A stretch of DNA of 35,999 bases from Nitrospirota bacterium (GTDB lineage: Bacteria; Nitrospirota; Thermodesulfovibrionia; SZUA-242): contig JALUUO010000072.1 of the NCBI GenBank assembly GCA_027021335.1, forward strand, positions 1 to 35,999. The letters are read 5' to 3'. The notes beneath the pieces were generated by a model that saw nothing but the letters and a program-made list of their open reading frames with translations, made no database searches and had not been told where the DNA came from. Below are positions 10,831 through 15,693 of this stretch, piece after piece (positions within the stretch are counted from its first letter, which is position 1; each line of letters opens with the position of its first letter). The translations under genes were made by a program, and so were the position numbers.

Positions 10831-11469
10831 TCAGGAAGTGGTTCTTACAAAAATTCCCTTGACTATTTCGTTATCCAGGGCAAGTGTGGTTTCCTCCACC
10901 TGGATTACCATGGTTGGACGTTTCTGCATAAGACGCACTGTACTTCCTGGAGCAAGTCCCATAGCTGTCAGCTTTTCTATATGCGATGTGTTTAGAAACG
11001 CCACAACGACATCAGTGCCCACTTCCACGTTGCTGAGATTAGTGATAAGTGGCGTGTATTTCTTCGATAAAGCGGAACAGCATGCGCCCTTGGGTATGGG
11101 TTTTCCGTGCGGGCATGCAGGTGGATGCCCAAGGAAGGTGCATAGCGCTTCTTCCACGTTCTTACTGATCACATGCTCGAATGTGCAGGCGTCATCCTCG
11201 TAGTTCGACAGATCCAGGACATCATGAAAAAGCCGCTCTGCAAGACGGTGGCGTCTCACTATATCGTGGGCCCTGTCTTCTGCATCTTCAGTAAGAGCAG
11301 GGATATTGCCGTCAAAGGAAAGCATGCCTTTGGCTTCAAGCATCTCGACCGCTTTCAGCGTGATTTTGTCGGCAAGAGAGGCGCGGTCCAGGGTCCCACG
11401 CTCCCTTAGTTCCCAGAACGTCTCCAGCATTTCATCGATACTATCTGCGTAATCGCATCTGTCGTTCAT
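10831..11469 (-). CDS. DtxR-like metal-sensor protein fused to a FeoA domain, recognition helix shortened
   Basis: A 212-residue protein. Residues 1-80 match the DtxR winged-helix region, including the linker RRHRLAERL. Residues 81-125 match the dimerisation/metal domain with C95-x2-E98-H99, the Cys-Glu-His set of iron-type DtxR/IdeR. Residues 136-211 are a FeoA/SH3 domain (LTAMGLAPGSTVRL). Compared from memory with C. diphtheriae DtxR, about six residues are missing between LADKI and VEMLEAKG, exactly the turn and recognition helix, so DNA binding is doubtful. ATG 11467-11469 has AAGGAG six bases upstream and is preferred over the TTG at 11475. It lies 13 bp after feoB; no stand-alone feoA is present. 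Confidence 0.85.
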   Translation of the reverse strand: MNDRCDYADSIDEMLETFWELRERGTLDRASLADKITLKAVEMLEAKGMLSFDGNIPALTEDAEDRAHDIVRRHRLAERLFHDVLDLSNYEDDACTFEHVISKNVEEALCTFLGHPPACPHGKPIPKGACCSALSKKYTPLITNLSNVEVGTDVVVAFLNTSHIEKLTAMGLAPGSTVRLMQKRPTMVIQVEETTLALDNEIVKGIFVRTTS

Positions 11470-11482
11470 CCGCAACTCCTTT

Positions 11483-13462
11483 TTACAACCTTATTCCCGA
11501 GGCTTTTATTATAAAGTTTAGCGTTCCTCCAATGGCTATGGCAAACGACATGACTATGCCTAGCATGGTCATTGCCGATTTAAACCCTCTTTCCTTAATC
11601 ATCATGAGCAGGCTGGCAAGACAAGGCACAAAAAGTGTGATTGTTACCAGAGCCACTGTAACCTGTGCAGGTGTTAACATTCCCTTTTTAGACATATTGA
11701 AGAATCCGGCGGCTCCGTAATCCCTTCGCAGAAAACCCATTATGAATGCGTCGGTTGCCATCTCCGGAAGTCCGAGCAGGGTCACAACTACTGGAGAAAG
11801 GGCTTCTCTGAGCCAGACCAGCAGGTGAAACCTATCCAGGAAAAAAAGTGTGAGTGTGCCGATTATGAATAGCGGCACGGCTTCCCGCAGATACCACTCG
11901 GTACGCCCCAGTGTCTTCAGTAACACGTTTGACATTCGTGGCATTCTTATGGGAGGAAGATCAAGAAAAAGCGCCGGTTTTTCGCCTTTTACAACCATTG
12001 AGGCGAGCCAACCAAGGAAGATCAGCGTAGTTACTATGCTTAGAATCCAGATTATCGTGACTTTGTAGGATAAAGAACTTAGAAGACCCATGATAACCCC
12101 AAGCTGAGCCGAACACGGCACTGCCAGGGCCAGCAGAAACGTGGCGATTATACGTTCCCTTCTGGTTTCAAGAATTCGGGTGGTCATTGTGGCCATTGTA
12201 ACGCAGCCAAGTCCCAGCACCATGGGTAAGACAGCTTTGCCGTTTAGGCCCATGAAATTAAATATGCGGTTTGTCATAACCGCGAGCCTGGGCAGGTATC
12301 CGGAGTCTTCCAGAATGCCGAATGCGATAAAAAAGGTTCCGGTTATCGGAAGTATTATTGCGATTGCATATGTCAAAGCCATAGTTATTACGCCATAGGG
12401 ACCAACCAGCATATCACGGAGAAATGCTATCGGAATCAAGGAGGCCAGGCGCTCGGCCCATGGGTTTAAGTATTGGCCGAAAATCACGTTTTCAAGGAAA
12501 TCCACGAATACTCCGGCGCCAAGATTTCCAACAAAGAGCCAGATAATATAAAGCACGGCTAATAGGATAGGAATGCCCCAGACCGGATGAGTGCTGTATC
12601 TGCCTATTAACTGCAATGCTTTTCCTCTGCCGGGTTCTGTTTTGGTTAGTACCTCTCCGAATATCTGTTCCACTTTACTTAGACGTGTGCTGCTTAGCAC
12701 TTCGGCAAGGGGTCGCTCGAAGTGTTTTTGGAGGTTTTTAACTATCCTTTCCACCTGCCGTACTTCATCTTCAGCAAGGTTGGATCTGAGCCATTCATTC
12801 ATCCCCGGCGCACCTGAAAGGATCATAAGCGCCAGCGATCGATTGGATACCGAGGCTGCGGGAAGATGTTCTGATATTTTTTCGAGCGCTTTTTCTATGC
12901 GTGCATCGTAATTGAATGTTAGGAAAGGGATTTTGGGCGATTGAAGTGCGGCTTTTATCTGGTTTATACCCTTTTTCTGCGGCGCAATAGCGCTTATCAC
13001 ATGTATTCCCAGCAGGCTGGAGAGTTTTTTTGTATCTATCTGTATTCCACGGTCTGTCGCCTCGTCCCACATATTAAGAACCAGAATCATCGGTCTGCCT
13101 GTTTCGGCCAGCTGGAGGGCCAGCATAAGTGTGCGCTTCATGTTTTTGGCGTCGGCTACCTGTACGACCGAATGAAACGGATGCTTGAGCAGGATATCCC
13201 TTGTCACACGTTCATCTTCACTCATGGGCACAAGACTGCTTGTGCCTGGAGTGTCTATCAGGTGGTACTTCTTTTCGCCGGCAATTAGGTTGCCGTGTGT
13301 TACCTCCACCGTTGTGCCCGGATAGTTTGATACCGTGGCATATTTTCCGGTAAGAAGGCCGAAGATAACGCTTTTACCAACGTTTGCGTTTCCAAGGAGG
13401 ATAACCCTGTCAGAATCTGATTTCTCCTCTACTGCTTTATCTTTGTGGCAATGATCATGCAT
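11483..13462 (-). CDS. feoB: Ferrous iron transporter FeoB
   Basis: A 659-residue inner-membrane protein. The N-terminal G domain shows GNANVGKS (24-31), DTPG (70-73) and NMWD (130-133), followed by a helical GDI-like region. Gate domains with about eight membrane segments occupy roughly residue 290 onward, with the conserved FLRRDYGAAG near residue 570. It imports Fe2+ into the cytoplasm. The first residues are His/Cys-rich (MHDHCH). It lacks about 110 residues relative to E. coli FeoB, as in many anaerobes. GAAGGAG precedes ATG 13462. It is the first gene of the minus-strand cluster and its partner FeoA domain is supplied by the downstream gene. Confidence 0.95.
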   Translation of the reverse strand: MHDHCHKDKAVEEKSDSDRVILLGNANVGKSVIFGLLTGKYATVSNYPGTTVEVTHGNLIAGEKKYHLIDTPGTSSLVPMSEDERVTRDILLKHPFHSVVQVADAKNMKRTLMLALQLAETGRPMILVLNMWDEATDRGIQIDTKKLSSLLGIHVISAIAPQKKGINQIKAALQSPKIPFLTFNYDARIEKALEKISEHLPAASVSNRSLALMILSGAPGMNEWLRSNLAEDEVRQVERIVKNLQKHFERPLAEVLSSTRLSKVEQIFGEVLTKTEPGRGKALQLIGRYSTHPVWGIPILLAVLYIIWLFVGNLGAGVFVDFLENVIFGQYLNPWAERLASLIPIAFLRDMLVGPYGVITMALTYAIAIILPITGTFFIAFGILEDSGYLPRLAVMTNRIFNFMGLNGKAVLPMVLGLGCVTMATMTTRILETRRERIIATFLLALAVPCSAQLGVIMGLLSSLSYKVTIIWILSIVTTLIFLGWLASMVVKGEKPALFLDLPPIRMPRMSNVLLKTLGRTEWYLREAVPLFIIGTLTLFFLDRFHLLVWLREALSPVVVTLLGLPEMATDAFIMGFLRRDYGAAGFFNMSKKGMLTPAQVTVALVTITLFVPCLASLLMMIKERGFKSAMTMLGIVMSFAIAIGGTLNFIIKASGIRL

Positions 13463-14408: not shown

Positions 14409-14771
14409 ATGAAGAGGGTACTAATTGTGGATGACAGTATATCCGTCGGCCGTCAACTTGGGAAAATAATTGCTGGAGCAGGAGAGGAATTTGAAGTGAT
14501 AGGCCATGCTAAAAACGGAGCAGAGGCCATTCAGGTACACCAGGTGGAACGTCCGGATATCGTTTGTATGGATATGAATATGCCGGTAATGGATGGGTTG
14601 ACCGCTTTACGAACTCTTGTCGCCATTGACCGTGATGTGAAGGTTGTAATGGTTACGTCGCTGGGAGGGGTAGGGGAGAAGTATACAGAGGCTCTGAAGC
14701 TGGGAGCAAAAAACGTTATATCAAAGCCGTTCGAGCCTGATAATGTGTTGAGGATACTTCGGGAACTGTAG
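14409..14771 (+). CDS. Stand-alone receiver (CheY-like response regulator)
   Basis: A 120-residue single receiver domain: acidic pair D8/D9, phospho-acceptor D55 (CMDMNMP), T83 and K106 (SKPFEP) are all present. There is no output domain. The frame is open to a GTG at 14391, but GGGAGGAG (14393-14400) upstream of ATG 14409 shows the latter is the start. The next gene encodes a CheX-type phosphatase, which probably dephosphorylates this protein. It may act on a motor or another partner as CheY does; no kinase is adjacent. Confidence 0.93.
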   Translation: MKRVLIVDDSISVGRQLGKIIAGAGEEFEVIGHAKNGAEAIQVHQVERPDIVCMDMNMPVMDGLTALRTLVAIDRDVKVVMVTSLGGVGEKYTEALKLGAKNVISKPFEPDNVLRILREL

Positions 14772-14782
14772 GGCATAGGGCA

Positions 14783-14810
14783 GGCGAAAGGCGAAAGGTG
14801 AAGGGCGAAA
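14783..14810 (+). repeat. Tandem 7-bp repeat, four copies, in the receiver-CheX spacer
   Basis: Units GGCGAAA, GGCGAAA, GGTGAAG and GGCGAAA follow each other without gaps. They lie in the 52-bp spacer between the receiver stop and the CheX-fusion start, just before the real ribosome site (GGGAGG, 14812-14817). The purine-rich repeats could act as extra weak ribosome landing sites or vary in copy number by slippage. Confidence 0.8.
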
Positions 14811-14823
14811 TGGGAGGAGTGTA

Positions 14824-15693
14824 ATGGCGGTTAAGTTTTTCGGTCAGTTCATGGTGGAAAAAGGGTTGGTCTCGAGAGAGCTTCTTTTAAAAGCGATTGA
14901 ACTGCAGGAGTCTACAAATCTCAAGTTAGGCGAGATGGCGCTTTCAATGGGTCTTATAACCGAGGCGGATATCAAGCGTATACACGAGGGGCAACGCTTT
15001 GAAGACCTACGGTTCGGAGACATGGCTGTGAAACTGGGCATTCTTACTCCGGACGAGCTTGAGCAGGTTCTGACAAAGCAGAAGAACAACCACCTTTATA
15101 TAGGTGAGGCCTTGATAAAAGTGGGAGCTCTGAAGGCTGAAGACTTGCCTCGTTATCTTGATGAGTTTAAAGCGGACCAGGCTCCGTACATGGTAGAGAG
15201 GGTTGCAATTCCGGAGGGAGTGCCGAACCAAGATTTGTGGGAACTCTCGGCCGACCTGACATATAAAATGTTTACACGCATTGTAGGGCTGACCTTTAGA
15301 CCGGGACAGTGTCAGCTTGTTAAGAGTATAGATCGTAATGATCTGATTGTAGCCATAGACCTGACAGGTCATGTGACTGCCCGTTATCTGCTCTCTGTAT
15401 CTTCAGGAGTGAGACAGCTTATTGCGCAGGCGATTCTCCAGGAAAACGATGTAACAAACGAACCCGATGATGTGTTGAACGATACGGTTATGGAGTTTAT
15501 GAATATTGTCTGTGGAAACATTGCGGCAAAGGCTGCGCAACTTGGAAAAATAATAGAGATTGATCCTCCCGAAATAATCGGTGCGGCAGAAGGCAGCGGC
15601 GGCCTGGACCTGCCTTCCGGAGGAACAGGTCTTAAATTTCCTCTTTATGTTGCGGAGGAACAGGTAGAGATAGGAATTTTTATGCTGCCGTAA
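14824..15693 (+). CDS. CheX-type phosphatase with four N-terminal MshEN-like repeats
   Basis: A 289-residue soluble protein. Residues 5-28, 34-57, 63-86 and 92-115 are four 24-residue motifs, each separated by five residues, fitting the MshEN (T2SSE-N) pattern: G at position 3 and 10, hydrophobics at 11-12, 17 and 21, Q at 24 (three of four). Paired motifs of this kind form c-di-GMP receptor domains, but the key first Arg is kept only in motif 3 (Lys in motif 2). Residues about 135-289 are a CheX/CheC phosphatase domain with the catalytic pattern D220-x3-E224-x2-N227. It probably dephosphorylates the neighbouring receiver. ATG 14824 follows GGGAGGAG. Confidence 0.85.
   Translation: MAVKFFGQFMVEKGLVSRELLLKAIELQESTNLKLGEMALSMGLITEADIKRIHEGQRFEDLRFGDMAVKLGILTPDELEQVLTKQKNNHLYIGEALIKVGALKAEDLPRYLDEFKADQAPYMVERVAIPEGVPNQDLWELSADLTYKMFTRIVGLTFRPGQCQLVKSIDRNDLIVAIDLTGHVTARYLLSVSSGVRQLIAQAILQENDVTNEPDDVLNDTVMEFMNIVCGNIAAKAAQLGKIIEIDPPEIIGAAEGSGGLDLPSGGTGLKFPLYVAEEQVEIGIFMLP

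Follow-up and report, generated by a model that had tools for sequence, protein, structure and literature searches.

A stand-alone receiver gene and, directly downstream of it, a gene fusing four MshEN motifs to a CheX phosphatase domain form a two-gene unit that, judged from the sequences compared, is kept nearly intact in about 100 related bacteria. The receiver is very likely the substrate of the adjoining CheX phosphatase, because both homologues that have no receiver beside them have also lost catalysis, and the MshEN part is very probably a detachable input of this receiver/phosphatase unit. For the complete chain of events, in which c-di-GMP would alter the action of the phosphatase on the receiver, we regard the prospects as evenly balanced.

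The pair lies in the window, the whole stretch of 35,999 nucleotides of Nitrospirota DNA that was analysed here. An earlier note, made from the letters of this DNA, had proposed that c-di-GMP controls dephosphorylation of the receiver, as an input to a chemotaxis-like switch.

Domain organization of the receiver and the fusion protein

The features of the two genes are as follows.

14409..14771, + strand: stand-alone receiver (P0002), 120 residues; PF00072 at 4.1e-24, above cut-off; no output domain
14772..14823, + strand: gap between receiver and fusion gene, 52 bases, both genes on the same strand
14824..15693, + strand: tetra-MshEN-CheX fusion (P0001), open reading frame of 289 residues
14836..14907, + strand: MshEN motif 1, residues 5-28; motif positions 1, 3 and 24 read F, G and Q
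14923..14994, + strand: MshEN motif 2, residues 34-57; motif positions 1, 21 and 24 read K, H and Q
15010..15081, + strand: MshEN motif 3, residues 63-86; fits the relaxed 2016 pattern in full
15097..15168, + strand: MshEN motif 4, residues 92-115; motif positions 1 and 24 read Y and F
15229..15684, + strand: CheX phosphatase domain, about residues 136-287; PF13690 and Foldseek match to 1squ
15481..15504, + strand: CheX catalytic site D220-x3-E224-x2-N227; D220, E224 and N227 all present

Residues 1-115 of the fusion protein hold four motifs of 24 residues in a strict 29-residue period, with the 5-residue spacers that the earlier note had described. The NCBIfam profile NF053729 for the MshE-related c-di-GMP motif (cut-off 38 bits) matched this region in two stretches with an E-value of 2.3e-24 and 84.9 bits, in strong agreement with the note's MshEN reading. 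Its account of the motif residues as mostly kept stands in general, the exceptions being His54 at position 21 of motif 2 and Phe115 at position 24 of motif 4, and it was correct that the first Arg occurs only in motif 3, as position 1 reads F, K, R and Y. When fragments were searched separately, motifs 1+2 scored 51 bits, motifs 2+3 43.1 bits (as two split stretches only) and motifs 3+4 43.5 bits. Selection of a binding motif pair by profile score was ruled out, since all three overlapping pairs pass the cut-off. A Pfam search of the N-terminal half gave weak matches only, none above cut-off, and annotation with Pfam only would therefore return a plain CheX protein and miss the MshEN part.

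The C-terminal half matched PF13690 (CheX) at 4.4e-13, with 49.5 bits against a cut-off of 27, and together with the three catalytic residues this confirmed the CheX domain and site named earlier. The Thermotogales CheX equivalog NF041094 was not passed (41.3 bits against a cut-off of 280); by these scores, the protein has a domain in common with that equivalog but is a different protein.

An AlphaFold2 model of the fusion protein, built with an alignment of 13 homologues, had a mean pLDDT of 86.9 and a pTM of 0.57, a value at which the relative placement of the domains is not reliably predicted. The model shows eight helices that recur every 29 residues in step with the motifs and, after them, a CheX fold; pLDDT falls below 50 at residues 120-125. 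Foldseek searches paired the C-terminal part with Thermotoga maritima CheX (1squ, TM 0.84 by target length) and also with the CheX of the Borrelia CheX-CheY complex (3hzh), and the repeats with c-di-GMP-bound MshE (5htl) over 56 columns at 1.0 A. The E-value of the latter match was weak (0.04), presumably because the matched stretch is short. The predicted structure thus agrees with the earlier assignment of both halves.

The upstream gene, read previously as a receiver without output, proved to be one by its PF00072 match. Its receiver residues D8, D9, D55, T83 and K106 are all intact, and an extended SLGGVGEK loop follows beta4. No Rfam families, such as a c-di-GMP riboswitch, were found in the window, the gap at 14772..14823 included.

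Conservation of the gene pair and its natural variants

Of 107 homologous loci, 105 have a receiver directly upstream of the MshEN-CheX gene and on its strand: 25/26 in a first set and 80/81 in a second, where one of the 80 (L175) was assigned by reading the sequence. The two sets share a few genomes, and distinct proteins make up 102 of the 107. The motif pattern and the receiver neighbour seen in the window are thus both conserved among homologues, as the earlier interpretation implied. The gap between the genes ranges from 20 to 141 bases in 79 homologous loci and is usually 20-100 bases. Partner receivers keep D8, D9, D55, T/S83 and K106 and share a Gly-rich loop after beta4. This loop is absent from the three other receivers, picked up by the same script, that belong to the window's own che clusters. 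Beyond the receiver, no conserved neighbours of the MshEN-CheX gene were found among the loci read, and the LOG-type gene upstream in the window recurs only in L003. Elsewhere in the window (10831-13462, - strand), FeoB adjoins a protein in which an iron-dependent repressor domain is fused to FeoA.

The two loci without a receiver, L028 and L174, are both without CheX catalytic residues. The L028 protein carries E224Q and N227A, and a methyltransferase-like gene occupies the upstream slot. L174 is a second copy within its genome, with D, E and N lost and no receiver upstream. The E224/N227 pair (E-x2-N) is kept in 101 of 103 readable homologues; L028 and L174, which fall in separate parts of the protein tree, are the exceptions. 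The association of receiver absence with loss of catalytic residues gave a Fisher p of 1.9e-4, uncorrected for kinship, which serves as a guide and not as a strict probability because the loci share ancestry and one of the two exceptions, L174, is a spare copy. This joint loss upholds the phosphatase-receiver link of the earlier note; the term 'chemotaxis-like switch' goes further than the loci show, as no che genes adjoin the receiver.

Both L028 and L174 keep their MshEN motifs though the catalytic residues are lost. In genome G337 (L175:1-2670), a receiver ends at base 1950 and a 182-residue CheX with an intact site starts at base 1986, with no trace of MshEN between the two. The persistence of this pair indicates that the coupling of receiver and phosphatase does not strictly depend on MshEN. 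Altogether, such natural variants, with catalysis lost or MshEN missing, show which parts of the system depend on each other.

A pattern search recovered twelve homologues, mainly in Desulfuromonadales-type genomes. Of 231 genomes in the class to which the window belongs, 69 match the profile, only about 15 of them with a CheX fusion and the remainder with the four-motif part only. In the order of Geobacter argillaceus, a match was found in 83 of 141 genomes, and it was the single match in 82 of these 83. A tree of 96 proteins placed the window's protein and its relative L003 among those of Desulfuromonadales type, at a distance from most of the genes in its class, a placement that suggests acquisition of the gene by horizontal transfer.

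The MshEN array as a candidate c-di-GMP receptor

On sequence grounds, the N-terminal array is an MshEN-type domain and not a canonical or proven c-di-GMP receptor, because position 1 reads F/K/R/Y, motif 2 has His at position 21, and motif 3 is the only one that fits the relaxed 2016 pattern. Residue conservation, predicted fold and precedent nevertheless make it fairly probable that the array binds c-di-GMP. Amongst the motifs of 101 distinct proteins, Gly occupies position 3 in 401/404 (mean 1.0) and Gln occupies position 24 in 299/303 of motifs 1-3 (0.99), these being the most conserved positions of the repeat; the turn Gly at position 10 is found in 341/404 (0.85). According to Wang et al. 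2016, Gly3 of MshE gives a backbone amide to the guanine and Gln24 touches ribose and phosphate, and several of the contact positions are changed in the non-binder XpsE (G11V, G40L and Q61V; PMC5013675).

The two GSPII domains of Thermus PilF provide further precedent. GSPII-B has Lys and Leu at position 1 and binds c-di-GMP at 6 nM, and Arg put into this position weakens binding (PMC11731258). GSPII-A is a non-binder that misses Gln24 in both motifs, and measurable binding required Gln24 in both motifs together with Arg in motif II (PMC12002112). Since GSPII-B binds with Lys and Leu, the missing Arg at position 1 of the present array is not decisive. The earlier caution that binding may be weakened or lost for want of this Arg loses force on that point; the other deviations, His54, Phe115 and Tyr92, bear on which motif pair, if any, could bind.

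With Gly3 in all four motifs and Gln24 in motifs 1-3, motif pairs 1-2 and 2-3 of the window's protein carry both contact residues in each motif and pair 3-4 does not. No pair combines Arg, Lys or Leu at position 1 with hydrophobic positions 17 and 21 in each of its motifs. Across the family, motifs 2 and 3 mostly have Lys or Arg at position 1, and in almost all homologues motif 4 is aromatic at positions 1 and 24 (Phe at 24) and position 21 of motif 2 is polar (His, Asn or Gln).

Small stand-alone four-motif MshEN proteins (122-153 residues) also occur widely in the window's class, and their gene neighbours vary:

L074:6587-6964: stand-alone four-motif MshEN protein; similar proteins in L075-L079, L087 and L088

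In 17 aligned proteins of this kind, positions 1 and 24 of motif 4 are F or Y and position 21 of motif 1 is R; the central motifs 2 and 3 are near canonical. Because these proteins have the motif 4 aromatics in common with the fusion protein and their central motifs are near canonical, our guess is that a putative c-di-GMP site lies between motifs 2 and 3. Motif 4 of the fusion protein is probably a capping repeat.

A different reading is that the array has lost nucleotide binding and is a pure protein-contact module that docks the receiver, holds the dimer or binds another protein. The preservation through the family of the non-canonical F5, the polar residue at 54, Y92 and F115 would fit such a role, as would the retention of MshEN in L028 and L174 despite lost catalysis, and non-binding relatives are described in the papers on XpsE (PMC5013675) and PilF GSPII-A (PMC12002112). 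However, the direct-contact positions 3 and 24 are precisely those most conserved, several such positions are changed in the non-binders, and the receiver/CheX pair of G337 persists without MshEN. We therefore consider a pure contact module rather unlikely and retain binding of c-di-GMP as the preferred reading.

Proposed mechanism, genome setting and known systems

In the mechanism that we propose, the receiver and the fusion protein would act as one unit. The orphan receiver would be phosphorylated at D55 by a histidine kinase and dephosphorylated by the neighbouring CheX domain through E224 and N227. The four-motif array would take up one c-di-GMP (possibly two) and, once bound, would alter phosphatase activity, dimer arrangement or location via a short flexible link at about residues 120-130, so that the lifetime of the phosphorylated receiver would depend on cellular c-di-GMP. 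A more specific form of this proposal, in which the pair would be a core signalling unit in the Geobacter order and in some Nitrospirota, is that c-di-GMP directly gates a CheX dedicated to the orphan receiver, with one c-di-GMP bound between the central motifs and motifs 1 and 4 serving as caps; this form is tentative, and its chances are somewhat short of even. For the two-motif domain, the papers cited here describe no such binding mode.

The control could instead be spatial, with c-di-GMP bound by MshEN, catalysis unchanged and the phosphatase carried at high c-di-GMP to a place or partner such as the pole, a pilus or secretion machine, or the chemoreceptor array. The occurrence of MshEN in many proteins of the genome and in the stand-alone 122-153 residue forms suggests an adaptor-like module, and the low pLDDT (<50) at residues 120-125 fits a flexible link. 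The loci read contain no conserved partner gene beyond the receiver, which argues against this reading, and we judge purely spatial control to be unlikely. The preferred mechanism remains the one in which bound c-di-GMP affects what the phosphatase does to its receiver.

The genome of the window contains 12 GGDEF matches and MshEN motifs in about 10 other proteins, canonical R-type MshEN domains included. It also encodes flagellar FliG, several CheA/CheW genes, several che clusters and CheY-like proteins. The CheA of the flagellar cluster (G000:C88, L069:7186-9030, - strand) has an MshEN match above cut-off at residues 146-197, between the Hpt and dimerisation domains and thus in the usual place of P2. 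Altogether, the presence of this CheA, of GGDEF and MshEN proteins and of che genes indicates that c-di-GMP input to che-type signalling fits the organism. Further proteins observed in the genome were a 420-residue protein with CheW (4-140) and CheZ (221-420) domains, both far above cut-off (G000:C98, L072:3506-4768, - strand), a 295-residue protein with a DnaJ domain (47-91) and MshEN motifs (G000:C99, L002:1459-2346, - strand), and a DUF4388 protein that matches MshEN at residues 77-129 and is encoded upstream of a che cluster (G000:C76, L071:2055-3200, + strand).

The fusion protein is the sole CheC/CheX protein of this genome. The presence of CheZ rules out that it is the cell's sole CheY phosphatase and would leave this CheX free for its own receiver. 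That the receiver is not the substrate and the pair is kept for some other reason, with CheX acting on CheY proteins of the flagellar che clusters, would suit a genome with several che clusters, CheY-like proteins and this single CheX, but is very improbable given that CheZ is available for CheY, that the receiver is conserved as a neighbour while others are not, and that both receiver-less homologues lost their catalytic residues.

Allosteric control of a CheC-type phosphatase is known from CheC with CheD in Bacillus and Thermotoga, which resembles the present proposal; there, control is exerted by the separate protein CheD, unlike the fused second-messenger domain considered here. In fold, E-x2-N site and presumed CheY-like substrate, the fusion protein resembles CheX of T. 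maritima and Borrelia burgdorferi, and it differs from them in its N-terminal sensory array and in the orphan receiver, with no che cluster, beside it. With Vibrio cholerae MshE and Thermus PilF GSPII-B it shares 24-residue motifs joined by 5-residue linkers, the helix-turn-helix form of the repeat, and Gly and Gln at positions 3 and 24; it differs in having four motifs where those proteins have two, F/K/R/Y at position 1, His at position 21 in motif 2 and Phe at position 24 in motif 4, and it lacks a C-terminal MshEN subdomain and an ATPase.

The MshEN-CheX architecture itself is already known: one sentence in the main text of Wang et al. 2016 names CheX among the MshEN-fused domains, the same pairing as here, with no function given and no receiver partner in that main text (PMC5013675). 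No study of an MshEN-CheX protein was found in a literature search whose reach mostly excluded subscription journals, and as far as the literature was searched the gene pair, the four-motif form, the joint-loss pattern and the spread are not described. In other systems c-di-GMP likewise enters phospho-signalling or chemotaxis, acting on a CheY-like receiver in Caulobacter Cle (PMC5677366), on a bifunctional kinase in Caulobacter CckA (PMC12564702) and through an adaptor on CheR1 in Pseudomonas MapZ (PMC6370697); in none of these three is the target a dedicated CheX-type phosphatase.

The order of Geobacter argillaceus, in which the unit is widespread and present as a single copy, has members in culture, so the proposal can be tested in the laboratory. 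If it is true, c-di-GMP would set the lifetime of a phosphorylated receiver through its phosphatase, and not through the kinase or the output.
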